A stretch of DNA of 64,000 nucleotides. It comes from Rheinheimera pacifica. GTDB lineage: Bacteria; Pseudomonadota; Gammaproteobacteria; Enterobacterales; Alteromonadaceae. The position numbers and the translations under genes are program-made. The stretch's first letter is position 1. The number at the start of each line of letters is the position of its first letter. This document shows, piece by piece, positions 53,453 to 64,000 of this stretch. The DNA is taken from assembly GCF_900108485.1 (NCBI RefSeq), contig NZ_FNXF01000020.1, positions 1-64,000 of the forward strand, read 5' to 3'. Under the pieces are notes generated by a model, which had not been told where the DNA came from, ran no database searches, and saw only the letters and a list, made by a program, of their open reading frames with translations.

Positions 53453-56041
53453 ATGCGCTGGTGGCATAAAACGCTGCTTACAGGCTTAGTGCTCATGCTG
53501 CTGTTACTGGCTACGGGTTACTGGTACCTGCAAAAAACGCTGGCCGCTCTGCCCGTGCAAAACCTGCATTATGACGTTAAAGCCCTGTCGCTGCGCCAAC
53601 TGCAGCTAAGCCATGTCAGCTTCAACATTGCCGCAGCCAATGTGCATGTGCAGCTGAATGACGTGGCACTTAGCTGGCAGTTTCCGGCCTGGTTTAGTCT
53701 GGCACTTGATCATGTGCATTTGGGTAGCGGCAATATAACCCTTACCAATTGGCCACCGCCTGATAGCAGTGCAGAAGAGGTACCACAGCCTGCTTTTAGC
53801 TTGCCAGAAAACTGGCAACTGCCAGCCATATTGCCAGGCAGCGTTTCGCTGCAACAGCTTGGTATTCACCTGCCCTGCGGCCAGAACCGCTGCAGTTATC
53901 AGCTGCAGGCCGAGCTGAGCATTGTGCAGCAAAAACTGCAGTACCAACTTACTGTTGCTGATGCTGCCATTGCCGACGCTACCAGCAGCGATATAGTGCG
54001 GCTAAAACTGAGCGGCGATTATCAGACTATACAAAACCTGCCACTGCTTAATGCGCACCTCACGCTGGACGACAGCGCCTGGCTTGAGCTCAGCCAGCAG
54101 CTGTCAGCCCAGGGCAATGTTAACGCCAGCGGTGAATTTAAACTGGATATAGCCCCGCCTTCGCCCTGGCTATTGCAACAATTTAAACTGTGGCAAATTG
54201 AACTGCCGGTAGATGCTTTAGCCCAGTTTACCGCACCGGTAACAGTGCAAAGTAACTGGCAACTGGCACTGCCGGAACACCTTAGCCTGGCCAGCCTTAG
54301 CCAGCAAGCCAGCGGCAGCTGGCAGCTAAGTGCTAACCTGCCCACACCGCTTAGCCTGCCGGGCATAGGCCAGTTACAAGGCACTGTTGTTGCCAAACTG
54401 GGCCTTGAGCAAGGCGAGCTGACCCAATATCAGCTAAATAGCCAGCTAACCTTACTAAAACCACAGTTGTCAGGTGATTTGCTGCAATTGGGTCTCAATG
54501 CCGATGCGCTGCATATAACAGTTAATGCCGATGGCAAAAGCCAACCACAACTTAACGCTCTGCCACTCTATGTTGCACTTAACAGCGAAGGTAAAACTGC
54601 GCTGGGCTTAACCAGCAATGTTATGCTTAACCTTACGCCGCCAATCAGTGCACAACTGCAACAGGCAAAGCTAAGCCTGAAGCAGCAACTGTTTAACCCG
54701 GCGCCAGACACTAAACTGAGCGAAATAGCGCTTAACAGCGACTTCAATGCCTACTGGCTGGCCGACAACTGGCAGCTGGATATCCAGCAGTTAACCGCCA
54801 GTATCGCCAGCCTGAGCACACCGGATATTAAGGGCCGCAATATTAAACTCAGCCTTAGCCCTGGCCAGTTTAGTGGTGATGACCGCTTTAGCCAGGTAAA
54901 GCTGCACGCAGATATCAATCTTAGTGCGGCCGAGCTTGAACATCCACAGCTAAAAACCCAAAGCTGGCAGTGGCAAAGCAAACTCAGGGGCGATCTTAGC
55001 GCCTTGACGCTGGATGGCAATATAAGCAACGCTGCCAGCCTGGGGCTGAAACATCAGCTGCGCTATCAACAGGATCAGCTTGAGCTTAGCTGGCAACTGG
55101 ATGATATGTTTTTGCTGGCCGGTAATCCGCTGGCAGCAACCTTAACCGACTGGCCTGCTTTACTTGAGTTTAACCGTGGCCGCATTGCTGGCACAGGTGA
55201 ATTAACCCTGCTACCGGCGCTCAGTGCCAGTGCTAACGTTAATTTATCTGGTGTCAGTGGTATTTATGATCGCAGCCTGTTTAAAGAGCTAACCGCAGCG
55301 CTGCAGTTAAACTATCAGGCCGATACAGTACAACTGGGTGCAAAGGACGCCACCATAGCGGAAATTGAGCACGGCGTGGTAGTCGGGCCGCTAAAACTAA
55401 ATGCACAGTACACCGCCAATACCGATGCCATTACTGCCGGTAAACTGGATATCCAGCAGTTACAACTACTGGCTATGGGCGGGCAGGTGCAGGTGCAGCC
55501 GGTACTACTGGATTTAACCCTGGCAGAGCAGCAGGTATTACTACAGTTAAAACAAATTGATTTAACCCAGTTGCTGCAACAACATCCTACTACCGATCTT
55601 ACCGGTAATGGCCGTATCTCCGGCACTATTCCGCTGCTGCTGGGCCGTAATGGTGCCAGTGTAAAAGATGGTAGCATTGCCGCAGAAAGCCCGGGCGGCA
55701 AGTTACAGTATCGCCCGCCTACAGCGCAATCTATGGCAGCAACCAACCAGGGTATGAAAGTGGTTTTGGAGGCACTGGACGATTTTCATTATTCGGTGTT
55801 ATCGAGCAATGTCAGCTATGATACCAGTGGTAAATTGTTGCTGGGGCTAACATTGAGAGGACAAAACCCGGCGCTGGAAGCTGGCCGGGCGATAAACCTG
55901 AATATCAATCTGGAAGAGGATATACCGGCGCTGATCACCAGCCTGCAGCTTAGCAGCAAAATCAGCGATAAAATAAAGCAACGGGTGCAACAACGTTTAC
56001 AACAGTCAGGCGCAAAACGCGCTAACGGAGTACAACAATGA
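53453..56041 (+). CDS. ydbH: YdbH family intermembrane phospholipid transport protein
   Basis: 862 aa. One N-terminal membrane anchor (about 5-27) and a very long beta-rich periplasmic part with repeated Gln/Leu-rich strands, typical of AsmA/TamB-like bridge proteins. The C-terminal YdbH-type domain (about 640-850) has NLSGVSGIYDRSLF, DLTGNGRISGTIPLLLG and LGLTLRGQNPALEAG. In E. coli YdbH acts with TamB and YhdP in phospholipid transport to the outer membrane and pairs with YnbE. It overlaps ynbE by 4 bp. Confidence 0.92.
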   Translation: MRWWHKTLLTGLVLMLLLLATGYWYLQKTLAALPVQNLHYDVKALSLRQLQLSHVSFNIAAANVHVQLNDVALSWQFPAWFSLALDHVHLGSGNITLTNWPPPDSSAEEVPQPAFSLPENWQLPAILPGSVSLQQLGIHLPCGQNRCSYQLQAELSIVQQKLQYQLTVADAAIADATSSDIVRLKLSGDYQTIQNLPLLNAHLTLDDSAWLELSQQLSAQGNVNASGEFKLDIAPPSPWLLQQFKLWQIELPVDALAQFTAPVTVQSNWQLALPEHLSLASLSQQASGSWQLSANLPTPLSLPGIGQLQGTVVAKLGLEQGELTQYQLNSQLTLLKPQLSGDLLQLGLNADALHITVNADGKSQPQLNALPLYVALNSEGKTALGLTSNVMLNLTPPISAQLQQAKLSLKQQLFNPAPDTKLSEIALNSDFNAYWLADNWQLDIQQLTASIASLSTPDIKGRNIKLSLSPGQFSGDDRFSQVKLHADINLSAAELEHPQLKTQSWQWQSKLRGDLSALTLDGNISNAASLGLKHQLRYQQDQLELSWQLDDMFLLAGNPLAATLTDWPALLEFNRGRIAGTGELTLLPALSASANVNLSGVSGIYDRSLFKELTAALQLNYQADTVQLGAKDATIAEIEHGVVVGPLKLNAQYTANTDAITAGKLDIQQLQLLAMGGQVQVQPVLLDLTLAEQQVLLQLKQIDLTQLLQQHPTTDLTGNGRISGTIPLLLGRNGASVKDGSIAAESPGGKLQYRPPTAQSMAATNQGMKVVLEALDDFHYSVLSSNVSYDTSGKLLLGLTLRGQNPALEAGRAINLNINLEEDIPALITSLQLSSKISDKIKQRVQQRLQQSGAKRANGVQQ

Positions 56042-56226
56042 TACAACAACTTAGTGGAGCAGTCGTTCTGGCACTGTTACTGGCCGCCTGCACCCCCAAA
56101 GTGCAGGTGGCTTTGCCAGCCGAACCGATTAACATCAACCTGAATGTGAAAATTCAGCACGAGATCTATATTAAAGTCGATAAACAGCTGGATGAATTGT
56201 TCAGCGATGACAGTGGTTTATTCTAA
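56038..56226 (+). CDS. ynbE: YnbE family lipoprotein
   Basis: 62 aa. Signal peptide to LLLAAC (Cys18 lipidated), then VQVALPAEPININLNVKIQHEIYIKVDKQLDELF. In E. coli YnbE is an outer-membrane lipoprotein that caps YdbH and completes its bridge. It overlaps the ydbH stop codon (ATGA). The next gene, ydbL, follows within 10 bp. Confidence 0.93.
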   Translation: MIQQLSGAVVLALLLAACTPKVQVALPAEPININLNVKIQHEIYIKVDKQLDELFSDDSGLF

Positions 56227-56233
56227 GGAGCAC

Positions 56234-56590
56234 ATGATGAAACGTTTTACTAAATTAAAACTGCTACTGTTACCTGCGCTGTTTGCCATTAGCCTGCCGG
56301 TACTGGCAATGAACTTACAGCAAGCAATGTCGGCACTGGGCCAGGCCAAAGCACAGGGCCTGGTTGGTGAACAGGCTAACGGCTATTTAGGTGTTGTTAA
56401 TAACAGTGGTGACGCCGCCAATATTGTAAAACTGATTAACGACGCCCGCCGGGCTGAATACGCCAAACTGGCACAACAAAACAACATAGCGGTAGCAGAT
56501 GTAGAAGCAATGGCAGGTAAAAAAGCCCTCGAGCGCACCAGCGCCGGTCATTATATTCTGCTTGACGGTAACTGGATTAAAAAGCCCTGA
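56234..56590 (+). CDS. ydbL: YdbL family periplasmic protein (DUF1318)
   Basis: 118 aa from the ATG at 56234, four bases after AAGGAG; an earlier frame overlapping ynbE is not needed. The signal peptide ends PVLAMN. The body AMSALGQAKAQGLVGEQANGY, IVKLINDARRAEYAKLAQQ is typical of DUF1318. E. coli YdbL modulates the YdbH-YnbE complex. This is the third gene of the conserved ydbH-ynbE-ydbL operon. Confidence 0.93.
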   Translation: MMKRFTKLKLLLLPALFAISLPVLAMNLQQAMSALGQAKAQGLVGEQANGYLGVVNNSGDAANIVKLINDARRAEYAKLAQQNNIAVADVEAMAGKKALERTSAGHYILLDGNWIKKP

Positions 56591-56620
56591 ACCCCGGCTC
56601 TTTAAGCCTGGTACTTTCCA

Positions 56621-56649
56621 CACCGGCATCTTCAGGTAAGATGCCGGTG
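56621..56649. repeat. 12-bp perfect hairpin between ydbL and the TPR-GGDEF gene
   Basis: CACCGGCATCTT (56621-56632), loop CAGGT, AAGATGCCGGTG (56638-56649). The stem is very stable but there is no U-run after it, so it is not a standard terminator. It ends 29 bp before the start codon of the diguanylate cyclase gene. Confidence 0.6.
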
Positions 56650-56678
56650 CATGCCCTTTCTTGGCATAGGATGTATCT

Positions 56679-58568
56679 ATGCTGCTAAAACCTTATATCA
56701 GTTTTGTGTGGTTATTTTTTGTCAGTTTATACAGCACTGGCGCGCTGGCTCAATCACAGCAGTTTGACGCGCTGGTTAAACAAATAGAACGTGGCGAACG
56801 GCCTTTTTTCAGCATAGCTGATTATCAGCAAGCACTGCTTGAGCTTGAAACCGCCATGCCCGCCAATGACAGCAAACGCAGCAGTATGCTCAACCGGCTG
56901 CGCTGCACTTTGGCGTATTTTGATAAACCAGAGCAAGGTATTAGTTTTAGCGATGAAAAGCTCAGCCAGGCAAAAGCACAGCAGGATCACGAAGCATTGG
57001 CCGATTACTATGTCTGCCGTTATTACCTTTACAGCCAACTGGGGCAAACCCAGCTGGCAGAGCAAAATGCTCAGCTTAGCTATGACGCCGCCAGTGCCAG
57101 TGAAAACCCGCTTAGTATTGCCATTAGTTTAAGTTTGCTGGGTAATATTGCCTCTTACCGCGGTAATTATGCCGATGCCATGCAGCATTATGTCAGCGCG
57201 TATCAGCTGCAGCTTAGTTTGGGATACCAGTCTTATATCAGTGACGTTGTGCTGGCCATAGCCGCCACTTATCGCCGCATGGGTTTGTATCAGGAGGCGT
57301 TGAACTATCTGCAGCAGGCAGAGCAGGAGTTTAGCGCACCACAGGAGCAATTTCGTCTGGCGATGATCTTAAACGAGAAAGCCTTCTCTTATGCTGAAAT
57401 GAACCAGCCACAGCAGGCGCTGGAACTATTTGAACAAGCATTACAGGCGTATAAAAAACTGAATGAACCCTTATGGCAAACCTATATAAAGGTAAACCTG
57501 GTATGGGTATATAACCTGCTGCAGCAATATGACAATGCCCTGGCATTTCACCGCCAAGCACTTGAAGAGCTAAACAGCAGCACAGTGCCGGATCAGTCTT
57601 CGCTTGCCACTTATAAGGGGCTGTTAGCGCTGTATCACAGCGAAACGCTTCTAGCCCTGCAACAGCCCGAGGATGCATTGCATCAGGTTACACTGGCCGA
57701 GCACCACCTCAGTACAGATGACAACCCGCGTTACCTGCTTATGCGCTATCAGGTAAAAGCCAAGGCACTGGCGGCTTCCGGCGACACTGCAGCGGCTTAT
57801 CAAATGCTGCAACGCTACGTTACGCTTAATCAGCAACAACAACAGCAAGCCAAAGAGCAACAAAGTAATTTGCTGCGTATCCAGTTTGATTCAGCCCATC
57901 AGCAAGAGCACAACCAGCAACTGGCGGCAGAAAAAGCGCTTATGCAACGGCATGTCAGCACCTTGCAACTGGCGCAGCGCTGGCAGTACGTGGCACTGAG
58001 CTTAATTGCGTTACTGCTGCTGATTTTATTTATTGCCGCCTTATCACTAAAACGGCGCAACCGCAGATTGCATAATCTTGCCATGACCGACGAGTTAACC
58101 GGTATTGCTAACCGGCGGCGCATTATGTTGCTGGCCGAGCAAGAGCGGGTAAAAGCGCGGGATACCGCCCTGCCACTGAGTTTTCTGATCCTCGATCTGG
58201 ATCACTTTAAACAGGTAAATGACCGTTACGGCCACGAAGCCGGCGATTTAGCCCTGCAGCAATTCAGCCTTACTGTCAGCAGTTTATTGCGTGAGCAAGA
58301 CCACTTTGGCCGTACCGGTGGCGAAGAGTTTTTGATTGTGCTGCCAGACACCGAACTGCAACATGCAGAAGTCATCGCTGAGCGCTTACGCAGTGCCGTT
58401 GCAGCTATTTGCGTTAGTAACAGCAAAAACCCTTTTTCTATTACCTGCAGTTTGGGTATTACACAAAGCCGCCCAGATGAGTTATTAAACATTACGCTGG
58501 GCCGCGCCGATGATGCGCTGTATCAGGCTAAAGATGAGGGCAGAAACCGGGCTGTCAGCCTTGTATAG
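56679..58568 (+). CDS. TPR-repeat membrane diguanylate cyclase
   Basis: 629 aa. A signal peptide (SFVWLFFVSLYSTGALA) is followed by a periplasmic region of TPR repeats (about 30-400), a coiled coil (about 385-430), one transmembrane helix (about 440-462) and a C-terminal GGDEF domain (about 470-627). The active site is GGEEF, and the inhibitory I-site RxxD lies five residues before it (REQD), so c-di-GMP synthesis with product inhibition is expected. The periplasmic TPRs may sense a protein or peptide ligand. Together with the EAL-CBS-GGDEF gene it is one of two c-di-GMP proteins here. Confidence 0.93.
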   Translation: MLLKPYISFVWLFFVSLYSTGALAQSQQFDALVKQIERGERPFFSIADYQQALLELETAMPANDSKRSSMLNRLRCTLAYFDKPEQGISFSDEKLSQAKAQQDHEALADYYVCRYYLYSQLGQTQLAEQNAQLSYDAASASENPLSIAISLSLLGNIASYRGNYADAMQHYVSAYQLQLSLGYQSYISDVVLAIAATYRRMGLYQEALNYLQQAEQEFSAPQEQFRLAMILNEKAFSYAEMNQPQQALELFEQALQAYKKLNEPLWQTYIKVNLVWVYNLLQQYDNALAFHRQALEELNSSTVPDQSSLATYKGLLALYHSETLLALQQPEDALHQVTLAEHHLSTDDNPRYLLMRYQVKAKALAASGDTAAAYQMLQRYVTLNQQQQQQAKEQQSNLLRIQFDSAHQQEHNQQLAAEKALMQRHVSTLQLAQRWQYVALSLIALLLLILFIAALSLKRRNRRLHNLAMTDELTGIANRRRIMLLAEQERVKARDTALPLSFLILDLDHFKQVNDRYGHEAGDLALQQFSLTVSSLLREQDHFGRTGGEEFLIVLPDTELQHAEVIAERLRSAVAAICVSNSKNPFSITCSLGITQSRPDELLNITLGRADDALYQAKDEGRNRAVSLV

Positions 58569-58663
58569 CCCGACTTTAGTCTAATACCTTCCCTGTTAAC
58601 ATTTTTGTACTATGCTCAGCTGACCCTAACCATAATTATATCAATACCTACAGAGGCTAAAAG

Positions 58664-60349
58664 ATGAATGCCATTTTTCTGATGTTGATGGGGCTTGGCG
58701 CAATGGCGCTTGGTTACTTCGTCTATTCCAAGTTTATTTGCGAAAAAATATTTAAAGTTGATCCTAACTTTCGTACTCCTGCCCATGAAATGCAAGACGG
58801 CGTAGATTACGTTCCCACTAACAAATATATCCTTTGGGGCCACCACTTTACTTCTGTTGCCGGTGCAGCGCCTATTATCGGCCCGGCTATTGCCGTGATC
58901 TGGGGCTGGGTGCCCGCGTTTTTATGGGTAGTATTTGGTACTATTTTCTTTGCTGGTGTGCATGACGCCGGTGCTATCTGGGCCAGCAGCCGCAACAAAG
59001 CAAAATCTATCGGTGCCTTAACCGGCGATATCGTTGGTAACCGTGCCCGTAGTATCTTTATGATTGTTATCTTTTTAGTATTGCTGATGGTAAACGCCGT
59101 TTTTGCCGTGGTTATCGCCGGCCAGCTGATTAGGTTCCCAAGTGCCACTATCCCGGTGTGGGGCGCTATTGTGGTTGCACTGATTATCGGCCAGCTGATT
59201 TACCGTAAAAATATGAGCTTACTGCTGGTGACCATCGTCGGCGTGGTTGCGCTGTACGGCATGATCTACATTGGCCCTACCCTGCCACTATCGTTACCGG
59301 AAATGGTTGGCCCGCTGAGCGATAACCAAACCTGGATCATCATGCTGTTCGTATACGCCGCTATTGCGTCCTTACTGCCGGTTTGGATGCTGCTGCAACC
59401 ACGTGACTACATCAACGGTATTCAACTGTTTATCGGCTTAATTCTGTTATACGGCGCGGTAATTATTTCCGGCCCGGATGTAGTAGCTCCGGCCTTTAAT
59501 ACTGATGTTCCGGAAGGCACGCCATCTCTTATTCCGCTACTGTTTGTTACCATTGCCTGTGGCGCCATCTCGGGCTTCCACGGCCTGGTATCCAGCGGTA
59601 CAACGTCTAAGCAACTGGATAAAGAACCCGATGTGCGCTTTGTCGGTTACTTTGGTGCCGTAGGTGAAGGTTCATTAGCGTTAGCCGCTATTATTGCCGC
59701 AACGGCCGGTTTTGCGACATTGGCCGACTGGCAATCTATTTACCACAGCTTTGGCCAGGGTGGTGTGTCGGCCTTTATTACCGGTGGCGCGAATATTCTG
59801 CAAGCCGGTATCGGTTTAGACACCGTGCTGTCGCAAACACTGTTAACAGTAATGGTCGTGTTGTTTGCCGGTACCACTATGGACACCGGTTTACGTCTGC
59901 AGCGTTACATCTTCCAGGAATGGGGCAGTATTTATAACATTGGCTGGATGCAAAAAGCGCCTCCTGCCACCTTGTTAGCGGTAGGTTCCTGTTTACTGCT
60001 GGCATTTGGTGCCGGTGGTGATGGTTCAGGCGGTATGTTGATATGGCCACTGTTTGGTACCACTAACCAGTTACTGGCTGGCTTAACCTTACTGGTTATC
60101 ACCGTTATGCTGGTTAAACTGCGCCGGCCAATGTGGTACACACTGGCACCGTTAGTTTTCCTGCTGATCATGACCACGCTGGGCCTGCTTATTCAGCTTA
60201 AGAGCTTCTACGACAAAGGCGACTGGTTCCTGTTCACTATGGACTTAATTGTACTGGTAGCAGCCATTCTGGTATCACTGGAATGCAGCTCGGCATTAAC
60301 CAAACAACTTAAAGCCAATAAAGCTAACCCCGCTGCTGACGAAGCATGA
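58664..60349 (+). CDS. cstA: Carbon starvation protein CstA family transporter
   Basis: 561 aa, multi-pass inner-membrane protein. Family landmarks: HHFTSVAGAAPIIGPAIAVIWGW (CstA N-terminal core), FAGVHDAGAIWASSRNKAKSIG, and SGFHGLVSSGTTSKQL. E. coli CstA and BtsT transport pyruvate or peptides; this shorter form (561 against about 700 aa) lacks extra C-terminal helices. AGAGG precedes the ATG. It overlaps the next small gene by 4 bp and forms a three-gene operon with an ArsA-like ATPase. Confidence 0.94.
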   Translation: MNAIFLMLMGLGAMALGYFVYSKFICEKIFKVDPNFRTPAHEMQDGVDYVPTNKYILWGHHFTSVAGAAPIIGPAIAVIWGWVPAFLWVVFGTIFFAGVHDAGAIWASSRNKAKSIGALTGDIVGNRARSIFMIVIFLVLLMVNAVFAVVIAGQLIRFPSATIPVWGAIVVALIIGQLIYRKNMSLLLVTIVGVVALYGMIYIGPTLPLSLPEMVGPLSDNQTWIIMLFVYAAIASLLPVWMLLQPRDYINGIQLFIGLILLYGAVIISGPDVVAPAFNTDVPEGTPSLIPLLFVTIACGAISGFHGLVSSGTTSKQLDKEPDVRFVGYFGAVGEGSLALAAIIAATAGFATLADWQSIYHSFGQGGVSAFITGGANILQAGIGLDTVLSQTLLTVMVVLFAGTTMDTGLRLQRYIFQEWGSIYNIGWMQKAPPATLLAVGSCLLLAFGAGGDGSGGMLIWPLFGTTNQLLAGLTLLVITVMLVKLRRPMWYTLAPLVFLLIMTTLGLLIQLKSFYDKGDWFLFTMDLIVLVAAILVSLECSSALTKQLKANKANPAADEA

Positions 60350-60618
60350 GTTTAGACAAATTTAAGGCCTGGTTCCGCCAGGCCAGTTTTTACGCAGAAG
60401 AAGCCTACAATGCGCCCTATCGCAGTGCGATAGCGCGCGCAAGGCGTGAACAGGACGACCTGTTTATGCTGCTGATATTTTCTGAAATGATGGGCGTGCC
60501 CAACCCCGCCAGTTACTACACCCTTGAGTTACAACCTTTATTAATGGAACGCTTCCATGACTGGCATACCCGTATGGGCATGGAGCATTCGCCACTGGAT
60601 AATTTCAAATGTTGTTAA
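60346..60618 (+). CDS. Cory-CC-star family small protein
   Basis: 90 aa, soluble, rich in aromatic and charged residues: FRQASFYAEEAYNAPYRSAI, a DDLFMLLIFSEMMGVPNPASYY segment, and it ends in the vicinal cysteine pair FKCC directly before the stop. That C-terminal CC is the hallmark of the family named cory-CC-star in databases, as I remember it. No biochemical function is known. It overlaps cstA by 4 bp (ATGA) and the ArsA-like gene by 10 bp, so all three are translationally linked. Confidence 0.8.
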   Translation: MSLDKFKAWFRQASFYAEEAYNAPYRSAIARARREQDDLFMLLIFSEMMGVPNPASYYTLELQPLLMERFHDWHTRMGMEHSPLDNFKCC

Positions 60619-61613
60619 CCGACAAACGTGTGCTGCTGTTTGGTGGCAAAGGTGGCGTGGGTAAAACCACCAGTTCCTCTGCCATGGCAGTGCTGGCAAG
60701 TATGCGCGGCAAAAAGGTGTTGCTGGTATCTACCGATCCGGCGCACAGCCTGGCCGATGCTTTTGACCGTGAAATTGGCGACAATATTACCCGCTTAGCC
60801 CCTGATTTAGACGGTTTAGAGCTGGACCCGGACCGCGAGGTAGAGCAGCACCTGGCCAAAGTTACTGCCCAGCTAAAGCGCTTTACCCGGCCTGAAATGT
60901 ACAGCGAAATTGAACGGCAAATGCGCTTAACCCGTCAATCGCCCGGTGCGCAGGAAGCGGCGATGCTTGAGCGCATTGCTAACGTGATTGAGCTGGGGTT
61001 AAAAGACTACGATTTAGTGATTTTCGACACCGCCCCAACCGGCCATACACTGCGGCTATTAAGCCTACCCGAAGCCATGGCAGCCTGGACGCAGGGCCTG
61101 CTGAATGCCAATAAACGCTCAGAAAAACTCGGTGACGTACTGGGCCATTTAACGCCCAAAGCTGGGCGCGATGTAGACAACCCGCTGGCCGATCCTAACC
61201 AAAACGCTACCGACGGTATGGATGCACGCAATAAAGCCATTACCGAAGCCTTACTGGCCCGCCAGCGCTTGTTGCAACGCACCCGCGAAGTGTTAACCGA
61301 CAGCAGCCGCACTGCCCTGTTGTTTGTGTTAACGCCAGAAAAACTGCCAATACTCGAAACCGGTCGCGCAGTACAAAGCTTATTGCAGGAAAAACTGCCG
61401 CTGGCAGGTTTAATAGTAAACCGCATACTGCCCGACAGTGCCGACGGCGACTTCCTCGCCGCACGGCGTGCGCAGGAAAAAGTGCATTTAGCCCAGATAG
61501 AACACGATTTTGCCAAACTACCGCGTTACAAAGTGCCACTGCAAGCTACTGATATTCAGGGCTTAACGGCATTGCAGCATATGGCAACCTTACTGGAGCA
61601 AGCCGGTTTATAG
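60609..61613 (+). CDS. ArsA/GET3-type ATPase
   Basis: 334 aa, single-domain deviant Walker P-loop ATPase: LFGGKGGVGKTTSSSAMA (with the extra lysine of the ArsA/Get3/MinD group), STDPAHSLADAFD (switch I, as in ArsA and GET3) and FDTAPTGHTLRLLSLP (switch II). ArsA pumps arsenite with ArsB and GET3 delivers tail-anchored proteins; neither partner is present here. No CxxC zinc pair of GET3 is seen. Its coupling to CstA and a CC-ending small protein suggests a role in that transporter's maturation or regulation, an inference. Confidence 0.92.
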   Translation: MLLTDKRVLLFGGKGGVGKTTSSSAMAVLASMRGKKVLLVSTDPAHSLADAFDREIGDNITRLAPDLDGLELDPDREVEQHLAKVTAQLKRFTRPEMYSEIERQMRLTRQSPGAQEAAMLERIANVIELGLKDYDLVIFDTAPTGHTLRLLSLPEAMAAWTQGLLNANKRSEKLGDVLGHLTPKAGRDVDNPLADPNQNATDGMDARNKAITEALLARQRLLQRTREVLTDSSRTALLFVLTPEKLPILETGRAVQSLLQEKLPLAGLIVNRILPDSADGDFLAARRAQEKVHLAQIEHDFAKLPRYKVPLQATDIQGLTALQHMATLLEQAGL

Positions 61614-61639
61614 CCGGCTAACTCGTCTAACACTGTTGA

Positions 61640-62017
61640 TTACTGGCTGCTCTCACGTAGCGCAACTTTAATAACATATTGAAAGTTATCAACTTCAGCA
61701 GAGTGCCAAAAGTTTTTGAAGTTAAATATTCTGGCTGAATCATAGCTAATTTCTAAAGTTCGGCCATCCAACCAATTAATAGCCAGATTATCAGCCTTGT
61801 CAGCCGTAAAAATTGGCTCGGCATCCTTATAACTTGCACCGGAAACTACAATGTAAACTTGCTCTGCATAGCCTGTGGTAGCACCACAATTTCTGCGTAT
61901 ATGTACAGCAGCAGTTTTTTGTTCTTCGTCAGCAGCTTGGCGAATAATTTCATCTACACACGGGTCAACGCAGGCTGATAGAAAAATGGCTATTGCTGAT
62001 AAAAATAGAATTCTCAT
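61640..62017 (-). CDS. Small lipoprotein of unknown function
   Basis: 125 aa with a lipoprotein signal ending FLSAC (Cys16). The mature part has a second Cys (VDPCVDE) and a third (IRRNCGATTG), followed by a beta-rich domain (VYIVVSG, LAINWLDGRTLEISYDSARIF). It resembles small envelope proteins often met in accessory regions, but I cannot name the family. A+T-rich compared with the arsA-like gene it converges with. First of the suspected cassette genes counted from the left. Confidence 0.7.
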   Translation of the reverse strand: MRILFLSAIAIFLSACVDPCVDEIIRQAADEEQKTAAVHIRRNCGATTGYAEQVYIVVSGASYKDAEPIFTADKADNLAINWLDGRTLEISYDSARIFNFKNFWHSAEVDNFQYVIKVALRESSQ

Positions 62018-62021
62018 AATT

Positions 62022-62074
62022 ACCTACGTTTAAAGCCGACGCGCGGTACGCGTCGGCTGATTTTGATTGTTATC
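62022..62074 (-). repeat. attC-like imperfect palindrome (d)
   Basis: On the reverse strand it begins GATAACAATC, where TAA is the stop codon of the YcxB-like gene. It then contains a perfect 10-bp stem AGCCGACGCG/CGCGTCGGCT (62034-62043 and 62049-62058) and ends ACGTAGGT just before the lipoprotein start codon. The layout is close to that of integron attC sites (TAACAA...AGCCGACGC...GCGTTAGR) but the right end lacks the conserved GTT. Confidence 0.45.
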
Positions 62075-62591
62075 TATATTTTTCTACCTGCGCTTGTAAG
62101 TCTGCTCTTTCCATCTCTGATGAGAAAGACGCTGATGGAATAATCAAGGCAAGAAGCTTGTCCAAAAAAATATATAGATCACCGTTATTTTCTTCTATTG
62201 CTTCAACGCATTCCCATTTATAGAAACATCTTCCAAGTGGGTTTATTTCTACAATTCCGTCAGGGCTAAATTCTATCGTTTTTTCTCCGAGCATTAATCC
62301 ATTGTCATTCGGCACACTTGACTGTCGGAGTTTACGCATATTGATATAGTAAGCGACTATAAATACAACAAGAGGAAAAGCCACTACCGCGGCTGATGGC
62401 CAATGAAAACTGGATAATGAGATTGAATCGATCTGAAAAATAAACATAAAAGCCATCGCTAAGATACACCAGATAACCATGATTTTAAGAAAACCTGAAC
62501 CTTTCATCTGCTGTGGTTTGCATAAGCGCTTGAACGCATAATCAGTGTAGTTAAGGTAGTCTTTCTTTGTGACTTTTATTGTTTTAATCAT
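62070..62591 (-). CDS. YcxB-like membrane protein
   Basis: 173 aa with two transmembrane helices (about 37-56 and 67-88), then a beta-rich C-terminal YcxB-like domain (SPDGIVEINPLGRCFYKWECVEAIEENNGDLYIFL), the hallmark of that family. Function unknown. The genes on either side are unrelated. The stop codon lies in the TAACAA of the following palindrome. Suspected integron cassette gene. Confidence 0.75.
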   Translation of the reverse strand: MIKTIKVTKKDYLNYTDYAFKRLCKPQQMKGSGFLKIMVIWCILAMAFMFIFQIDSISLSSFHWPSAAVVAFPLVVFIVAYYINMRKLRQSSVPNDNGLMLGEKTIEFSPDGIVEINPLGRCFYKWECVEAIEENNGDLYIFLDKLLALIIPSASFSSEMERADLQAQVEKYR

Positions 62592-62605
62592 GATTCAAAT
62601 ATTTC

Positions 62606-62663
62606 CATTTACGTATAAGATCAAAGCCTGCTGCGTACCGCCCTTCAGCTCTTATTTGTTATG
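62606..62663 (-). repeat. attC-like imperfect palindrome (c)
   Basis: On the reverse strand it begins CATAACAAATAAGAGC and ends GATCTTATACGTAAATG. The two ends are complementary apart from a few bases (CAT..AC..ATAAGA with TCTTAT..GTAAATG). The stop codon of the zinc-ribbon gene is the TAA of CATAACA. The inner part has GCGGTACGC. The span is 58 bp, in the range of short attC sites. Confidence 0.45.
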
Positions 62664-63015
62664 TTGCCTTAAATCCCAAAGTGTTAATTCTGGCCCCACA
62701 ATAAAAGCAGTTTGTGCGCCGTTTTGAAATTCTATGACCGCAATCTGAGCATTCTGTGGGTTGCGATACCTTGCCGTCCAGCTTTCCATCGCGTAAATCA
62801 ATCTCTTCAATTTTTTTCATAATCTGCGACTGCGTAATACCTAATTCGGTTAGCAATTCCAGTGCGGCCAGATTCATTATGTATAATTGGTCAATTTTCT
62901 CTGACAATGTATCGACATGAGCTTCATTCTGAAGAGCCCGGACTGAAGTCTGGCTACCTTCAACCGAATTTTTGGAGATCCTTAAATCCTGAAATAAGTT
63001 TGTTAAAAACTGCAT
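62659..63015 (-). CDS. Zinc-ribbon hypothetical protein
   Basis: 118 aa from the ATG at 63015 (GGAAGGAAA upstream). A helical or coiled-coil N-terminus (about 1-75) is followed by a C-terminal zinc ribbon CSDCGHRISKRRTNCFYCGAR with four cysteines in C-x2-C...C-x2-C spacing. No function can be assigned. An upstream extension to 63090 is unlikely. Suspected cassette gene; its stop codon is part of the next palindrome. Confidence 0.68.
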   Translation of the reverse strand: MQFLTNLFQDLRISKNSVEGSQTSVRALQNEAHVDTLSEKIDQLYIMNLAALELLTELGITQSQIMKKIEEIDLRDGKLDGKVSQPTECSDCGHRISKRRTNCFYCGARINTLGFKAT

Positions 63016-63083
63016 GTTAAATTTCCTTCCTACCAAGCACCGACCTAAGCAATAATTTGGCATTGACCAAAAAAAGAATAGTA

Positions 63084-63180
63084 CATTCACCTATCATCCT
63101 GAGGGACTACAGATTGGCCGCTACCGCGGCCAGAAGAGCGATTTTACCTATTGACTCAGGGCAGGCTCATATGTGTTATG
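63084..63180 (-). repeat. attC-like imperfect palindrome (b)
   Basis: On the reverse strand it begins CATAACACATATGA, 5 nt after the stop codon of the DUF1349 gene, and ends TGATAGGTGAATG. The ends are largely complementary when folded. An inner perfect hairpin GGCCGC-TACC-GCGGCC lies at 63116-63131. The span is 97 bp. Confidence 0.4.
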
Positions 63181-63185
63181 TGAAT

Positions 63186-63815
63186 TTAAACCGCGTGTGC
63201 TAACCATTTACAAGGCTCTAGACTCATTTCGGTAAACTTTGCTGTAAACGATGATTCAGAAGGACTACATGCATAAACGCCAAAACTCACCGTATTTTGT
63301 GCCGCTAACGGTGGATTACATTTACCCATTTCTATCGTAGTCTCTCCCAGCTGATGCAAGTGAAATATCCGCATTTGCTTGAAAACTTGGCCATCAAACG
63401 ATGACTCGATGAGGAAATCTGGACCTCGACGATTTAAACGATACCAAATTTCTTTGGGGAGCGAGATGTCAGAGGTTGCCCAATCTGAGTAACCTAAATT
63501 TGTAACCACACTACCGAGTCTGGAAAACTCTTGATTTTCATACTCAATGGAAGCTTTGAACCAATTTTCATTATCGAGGTAAATGATCAATCCACATTGG
63601 TCAAACTGAGCTTGGTAAGCAAAACTTACCTTCGCTGTAAATGTGAAATTTTCTTCTGACTCGATTAATAATGCAGGGGCATTATCATTACGGAAACCGT
63701 AATAAGAGCGTTGCCAAAAATCTGTGTTCGGCTCCGTTGTTATCGACACTAATTCCGAAGTTACTTCACTAACTTTCGGCTCAGAAGTCCACTTTCCGAC
63801 AGTAAAATTTACCAT
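63186..63815 (-). CDS. DUF1349 domain protein
   Basis: 209 aa, a beta-sandwich of the DUF1349 (YesU-like) family: TTEPNTDFWQRSYYGFRND, FTFTAKVSFAYQAQFDQCG, LIIYLDNENWFKASIEY and VSFGVYACSPS. Proteins of this fold bind or act on carbohydrates in some bacteria; the role here is unknown. There is no signal peptide. Codon use and base composition are more A+T-rich than those of the housekeeping genes. Suspected cassette gene. Confidence 0.85.
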   Translation of the reverse strand: MVNFTVGKWTSEPKVSEVTSELVSITTEPNTDFWQRSYYGFRNDNAPALLIESEENFTFTAKVSFAYQAQFDQCGLIIYLDNENWFKASIEYENQEFSRLGSVVTNLGYSDWATSDISLPKEIWYRLNRRGPDFLIESSFDGQVFKQMRIFHLHQLGETTIEMGKCNPPLAAQNTVSFGVYACSPSESSFTAKFTEMSLEPCKWLAHAV

Positions 63816-63850
63816 TACAAAATCTCTTTATTGTTTCCCGTAATCTGCTT

Positions 63851-63931
63851 GTTCACGTAACACCCCGCGCATGCGCGCAAACTTGTGAGCGTTGCAGGGG
63901 CCGCAGGCCCAGAATGACAAGGATTGTTAGC
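63851..63931 (-). repeat. attC-like imperfect palindrome (a)
   Basis: On the reverse strand it begins GCTAACAATCC, with TAA the stop codon of the edge gene, and ends GGGGTGTTACGTGAAC. TAACA-x-x-CC pairs with GG-x-x-TGTTA. This is the only one of the four with a GTT in the right half. Inner GGGCC-TGC-GGCCC and GCGCGCATGCGC symmetric segments lie between. Confidence 0.4.
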
Positions 63932-64000
63932 TGTTGAGTTCGTATTTAAATTCATTTAAAACGCTCATTTGTTGGGAAAACAGTTCAATAGATTCAGCCA
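63927..64000 (-). CDS. Partial CDS cut by the window end
   Basis: The reverse strand gives an open frame from the window edge ending AESIELFSQQMSVLNEFKYE then LNS and a TAA at 63929-63927. The stop sits in a TAACAA motif like those of its neighbours. Only 24 codons are visible, so no family can be given. Confidence 0.5.
   Translation of the reverse strand, partial: AESIELFSQQMSVLNEFKYELNS

Follow-up and report, generated by a model that had tools for sequence, protein, structure and literature searches.

The window analysed here, the 64,000 nucleotides that form positions 1-64,000 of contig C46 (66,800 bp in total) of the Rheinheimera pacifica assembly (G000), ends in a run of small leftward genes beside an ArsA-family ATPase gene, which raises the question of how this run was assembled and where the integrase that could have done so is encoded. 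The first-pass annotation read the run as the distal end of a chromosomal integron cassette array with intI and attI beyond 64,000. The ArsA-family gene (60609..61613, plus strand; PF02374, E 1e-75) belongs to the conserved chromosomal flank and marks the distal array end. It is present in 23 of the 31 genomes of the genus (E<=1e-60), and among the best 80 of 142 loci its closest relatives are those of HGW-Gammaproteobacteria-15 (hereafter HGW-15; 99%) and Rheinheimera oceanensis (98%), with lower identity for the ArsA of other Rheinheimera and of Arsukibacterium.

Five minus-strand genes follow: a lipoprotein-like gene that is the terminal resident of the array (61640..62017; an ORF with a lipoprotein-like signal read by eye), a YcxB-like cassette gene (62070..62591; PF14317, 24.0 bits against a cut-off of 23.3), a zinc-ribbon cassette gene (62659..63090; PF13248, 25.0 bits, below the cut-off of 27), a DUF1349 cassette gene (63186..63815; PF07081, E 1e-64) and the 3' end of a DUF6000 cassette gene (63927..64000), which is complete in the contig (63927-64598; E 1e-37). 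Beyond the window, a 573-aa gene (C46:64679-66400, equivalent to L027:4679-6400) and, from there to the contig end, a 100-aa zinc-ribbon-like gene are also leftward, both with family matches below the cut-offs. The leftward orientation and A+T richness ascribed to the five genes, the last of them cut by the window edge, were confirmed: the GC content of 61614-64000 is 40.3% compared with 48.0% for the whole window, and none of 124 windows of the same length is equally low. Counted outward from arsA, gaps A to E measure 26, 52, 67, 95 and 111 bp, the value for the zinc-ribbon gene depending on a GTG start that is uncertain and, if wrong, would make its gap wider; the proposed spacing of 50-170 bp accordingly fits the last four gaps and fails for the first. 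The DUF1349 gene is sporadic, with matches in 3 of 196 genomes of the family, the own genome included (E<=1e-20). The lipoprotein gene, with a 92% homolog at the same locus in genome G016 and short remnants in R. oceanensis, is an old resident of this locus. Conservation of the five genes in a fixed order in distant relatives, which the first-pass annotation had set down as contradicting its reading, was not found: of seven array proteins used as tblastn queries, DUF6000 alone has a counterpart at the corresponding position of HGW-15 or R. oceanensis (an 88% homolog at the same locus in the latter). An Rfam scan of 56,000-64,000 yielded weak matches only, far under the gathering scores. The N-terminus of the 573-aa protein resembles Avs1c of AVAST type 1 defense (E 2.5e-8, 34 bits against a cut-off of 70; E 3.4e-4 in PADLOC).

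For the recognition of attC sites, a pair profile was built from an alignment of 30 sites, all from outside the window, the ends of which pair as a 7-bp R box, an unpaired spacer and a 5+3-bp L box with one extrahelical base. For this structure, itself derived from the same 30 sequences, paired cells amounted to 89.3% compared with 65.4% after shuffling, the covariation score to 0.603 compared with 0.157, and cells changed on both sides to 118 compared with 43.9. Three of the five measures exceeded all 500 shuffles, with far lower values for slid versions; the remaining two, pair count and pair types, were at the shuffle level (78 and 245 of 500). With a covariance model made from joined halves (R1), cmsearch missed most of the known long sites, probably owing to its short scanning range; the model worked in the genome search. 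With 150 of 2438 candidates scored, the genome yielded at least 44 attC matches at E<=1, and 61 matches scored >22 in the genome stretches scanned, a count in which overlapping contig ends may be included twice.

Within the window, where scoring was by the pair-profile scan rather than by the covariance model, the site in gap E (63855..63932, minus strand) stands out, with R and L boxes, the extrahelical base and a score of 28.5 that none of 400 random stretches equaled; the next best site of the 64 kb scored 14.5, and of ten whole-window shuffles one reached 30.1 and the other nine 14.1-19.5. This site matches attCs elsewhere in the same genome at 89-92%. Gap C contains a probable decayed attC (62613..62664, minus strand) with CTT for GTT in the 3' core and a marginal score of 2.4 (6 of 400), and gap B a weak, decayed one (62021..62075, minus strand; equaled by 42 of 400) that retains the 5' half TAACAA, has an altered 3' core and shares 83% identity with an HGW-15 attC over 60 nt. 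Gaps D and A are at background by the profile (337 and 273 of 400 random stretches as high), and there is no attC between arsA and the lipoprotein gene. The attC-type palindrome anticipated in each gap is therefore clear in one only, and the attC search of the window end that the first-pass annotation had proposed bears out its array at 63855-63932, the distal gaps holding decayed sites or none. Further attCs lie past the window at 64,613 and 66,386 of C46; the reading as a leftward cassette array that abuts the ArsA-like gene with its distal end thus stands.

Gap D is filled by a copy (63090..63182, minus strand) of a noncoding repeat of approximately 112 bp that begins with TAACA, is oriented like an attC and is dispersed in the genus, with 62 matches in 17 of the 31 genomes (other copies include L031:5730-5844 and L149:6284-6395). 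We rejected an attC with a changed core, given these 62 matches and their alignment, which point to a separate repeat; a 32-aa peptide was also rejected, with no NCBIfam match and no codon periodicity (0.115, 0.109, 0.122). An attC on the same strand lies within about 1.5 kb of the repeat in 14 of 30 fetched loci and one on the opposite strand in 0 of 30. The repeat is found downstream of attI sites lacking intI in L218, L219, L220, L149 and L189, as well as in the array described here, and in mid-array in the HGW-15 integron (L148). In L184:755-805 onward (G021), the repeat start seems, by eye, to run into a canonical attC 3' half, a possible hybrid.

Where does the array begin? The genomes of HGW-15 and R. 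oceanensis carry, no more than 3.8 kb past arsA, F179, a gene for a DUF3667 protein and an HlyD-like gene (the HlyD label being our own assignment), with an F179-arsA spacing of 3.2-3.8 kb on a single contig. The F179-DUF3667-hlyD block of the R. pacifica genome is located at C25:43123-45933, 1.1 kb from the contig end, and C25 ends in a DUF7668 cassette, an attC and then a cassette common to the ends of C46 and C31, identical over 362 bp. Most likely, C25 continues into C46, a join that we infer, as no single contig reads through it; the assembly broke here because the cassette is duplicated. The route could also lead via C31, in which case there could be extra cassettes between C25 and C46. 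The joined order would be hlyD-DUF3667-F179, the attI module, the DUF7668 cassette, the duplicated zinc-ribbon-like cassette, the 573-aa gene, DUF6000, DUF1349, zinc ribbon, YcxB-like, lipoprotein and arsA. Four attCs of this array score >22 (one on C25, three on C46), all in one orientation; contigs of this draft break in shared cassettes, so that attC counts per array are uncertain. Such breaks at shared cassette sequence are seen at the contig ends C46/C31/C25, C31/C40/C10 and C17/C12, the shared lengths being 362 identical bp for C46/C31 and, from overlap positions, about 381 and 330 bp for the others. A join of C46 with C17, the contig that carries an intI fossil, was rejected because the end of C17 overlaps C12.

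Directly behind F179 lies a region of approximately 217 bp (C25:45934-46149) that is 85% identical to the region beside the intact intI of R. oceanensis and has at its end the core AAAGCTGTTA, where the first cassette is attached. By sequence, this region appears to be the attI site at the array start, with recombination there putative. In HGW-15, the match at the F179 locus extends only to position 196, and the attI core has accordingly been lost. A sigma-70 scan of the module found nothing above threshold (0 found); hexamers of the form TTGAT[TA]-N17-TAnnnT, below the scanner threshold, are present in 36 of 39 aligned attI modules, and the module may have a promoter function.

No IntI match was detected in the 4.3 kb upstream of the F179-side module or on C25 or C46, the contig gap remaining between them. 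No full-length IntI was found in the assembly either: none exceeds the TIGR02249 cut-off (best 143 of 265 bits), which 28 of the 31 genus genomes do have an IntI to pass, and what was found are fragments on C17, C34 and C24. The integron locus proper of this genome, acnD-prpF-intI on C17, is separate from the array and its intI is a fossil; the intact intI genes of HGW-15 and R. oceanensis are likewise at acnD-prpF, on contigs other than those of arsA. The attI query (see below) matches one place only in the R. pacifica genome, the attI of C17 being of a different type. Three genomes retain an isolated, stop-free piece of the IntI C-terminus (107 bits; model positions 248-314), at L036:3779-3979, G015:C15:38816-39016 and G008:C30:36423-36623.

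These data bear on the proposal of the first-pass annotation that the array is part of a complete sedentary integron, its intI and attI lying just beyond 64,000. Genes and attCs do run on leftward past that position, but the opposite flank is F179, with an attI-like region and the first cassette and no integrase; the fragments are on C17, C34 and C24, and C17 runs into C12. With the contig gap as a small opening, the proposal was not borne out, and we regard it as scarcely credible. A complete integron has intI next to attI; here, attI is at the array start and intI is not beside it. Clusters of at least two attCs without a nearby intI are defined as CALINs, for which an attI is not required (PMC9024848). 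With at least two attCs in one orientation and no intI nearby, within the limit set by the contig gap, the array is a CALIN as judged from its sequence features.

We then asked how far such attI sites extend through the genus. A 226-bp attI query (L118:4310-4535) searched in the 31 genomes gave 46 matches in 23 of them: 18 beside intI, 26 orphan, one intermediate (L243, with a broken intI 4.4 kb upstream and attCs in between) and one undecidable (L235, which starts at a contig edge). Flanks were inspected for 41 of the 46 matches (42 rows, one match having two locus ids); IntI adjoins 13 of these 41, once only as a remnant of residues 1-54, and the remaining five matches have an IntI match within 131 bp by coordinates. 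Of the six ORFs used as integrase queries, the one from L138 (414 aa) is, by length and match, no integrase, and its single match among the orphans (L237) is, by position, the prpF-like neighbor. The 26 orphans occur in 18 of the 31 genomes, each with at least 2.36 kb upstream free of IntI matches; four of them are partial, matching <70 of the 226 bases. A same-strand attC is present within 4 kb downstream in 16 of the 26 (score >24; the weakest 24.2), three of the other ten having <0.9 kb downstream to inspect, and no opposite-strand attC was detected across the 42 rows. By upstream flank, the orphans fall into 14 groups, four of which are common to at least three genomes: behind F179 (4 genomes), a peptidase-like gene of ~813-828 aa (5), pgsA with a tRNA-like sequence (4) and a secreted-looking protein of ~510-547 aa (3), the last three labels coming from reading of the translations.

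Cassettes might alternatively have landed ectopically at a non-classical site of the attG type, with no attI involved. Such insertion has been described (Loot et al. 2024, via citing papers), and Xanthomonas is known to have CALINs at conserved loci (PMC12444791). However, an attG site is neither attI nor attC, and here an attI homolog of ~217 bp, identified by sequence only, is located exactly at the array start; furthermore, related orphan copies exist at 25 further sites, and the attCs, where found, lie on one side and one strand. We consider this explanation very unlikely.

Comparison of the shared loci shows turnover behind conserved flanks. At the F179 locus (group A: the R. pacifica genome, G005, G016 and G024), the attI region starts 5-8 bp past the F179 ORF in 4 of 4 genomes and the upstream 2.6 kb aligns throughout; for groups A, B, C and T in general, 2.2-2.7 kb of upstream flank can be aligned. 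Beyond the core, on its downstream side, five of the six group A pairs have 0 bp in common (with 846 bp available on the R. pacifica side in three) and the sixth has 263 bp, at least 185 bp of which are the gap-D repeat. In group B (5 genomes), nine of ten pairs share <=203 bp and the tenth 639 bp, beginning at least 1.4 kb on, whereas in group T (4 genomes, the G029:C10 module retaining positions 116-178 only) five of six pairs share 0 bp and the sixth 90 bp. The group C sequences become homologous again about 1 kb or more further on, at the start of the right flank. The conserved flanks with differing contents suggest cassette exchange after local loss of the integrase, probably by an IntI acting in trans. 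Homologous recombination of whole loci could be an alternative way to swap contents.

In a tree of 39 modules, built from a short alignment (~113 bp) and with many low supports, the modules of groups B and C are sorted by locus, three members of group T fall together with a second G002 module, and group A is placed near the intI-side attI of R. oceanensis and the remnant in G016. The intI-linked attI of G020 groups with four orphans from the same genome (support 0.98), as if the modules had been copied within the lineage. Altogether, G020 has five related attI modules (L231, L232, L233, L234 and L199), only one of them beside intI, which could show how attI sites are copied.

The array could also be what is left of a complete integron, in which an intI beside F179 captured the cassettes in cis and was then deleted, with nothing added later. 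Consistent with such decay, the match at locus A (query 3-219 in G005) covers the intI-adjacent part in addition to the attI half, R. pleomorphica carries, on G018:C26, an attI and five attCs without intI beside prpF, the usual intI locus, and the intI on C17 of the R. pacifica genome is a fossil. Nevertheless, the junction without intI is near-identical in four genomes, which places the loss before they diverged, and yet the content behind attI differs in every locus A pair, save for the gap-D repeat in one; in addition, 15 of the 18 genomes with orphan attIs have an IntI over the cut-off elsewhere. Decay of this kind with no later additions appears to us unlikely.

Collectively, what is observed is a set of one-way attCs, an attI homolog without intI, a separate broken intI locus and differing cassettes at the same site. 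The explanation that we favor, and hold to be probable, is that the array grew from an attI without an intI of its own, was filled in trans by an IntI encoded elsewhere, has its distal cassettes locked and is now frozen in this strain. The IntI encoded elsewhere, that of the acnD-prpF integron of the relatives and in earlier times also of the R. pacifica lineage itself, would insert cassettes at the orphan attI in trans; the decayed cores of the oldest, distal attCs would lock those cassettes in place; and the array would now be frozen because no full-length IntI was found. More tentatively, and with somewhat less than even expectation, Rheinheimera may possess a distributed integron, in which one integrase serves many satellite attI modules (~110-220 bp, possibly with Pc) that lack intI, are maintained next to resident genes at conserved loci and have spread as units, many CALINs of this genus then being working docking stations filled and emptied in trans. 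Orphan attIs at conserved loci, with kept flanks and exchanged cassettes, would constitute a third route to CALINs. If this is true, a search for attI only beside intI misses docking sites.

CALINs, fossil intI genes and conserved CALIN loci are already known (PMC9024848; PMC12444791). CALINs have been explained as decayed integrons (PMC9024848) and, in newer work, as the product of insertions at attG sites (cited in PMC12901181), and their cassettes can be mobilized in trans by IntI (PMC9668308; PMC12444791). The array differs from a CALIN as so defined in that it starts at a recognizable attI, with further sites of this kind at conserved loci. Among the matches listed, literature searches (subscription papers lying mostly outside their scope) returned no description of orphan attI modules on the chromosomes of a whole genus, and a single precedent for a solo or orphan attI site that lacks intI, the Shewanella prophage M16-3, described as carrying a CALIN with its own attI (PMC9892861). 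The likeness is that of an intI-less cassette cluster that starts at attI, with a complete integron elsewhere (PMC9892861). Nevertheless, M16-3 is one prophage, the attI of which is the same as that of its complete integron, whereas in Rheinheimera there are 14 locus groups in 18 of 31 genomes. Xanthomonas is similar in having an inactivated intI at a fixed locus and CALINs at other conserved chromosomal loci, although the available text of that study mentions no attI at its CALINs (PMC12444791). The closest comparison within the genus is the sedentary integron at acnD-prpF, which shares with the array the attC family and, in R. oceanensis, the attI family as well, but has an intI, intact in HGW-15 and R. 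oceanensis and broken in the R. pacifica genome.
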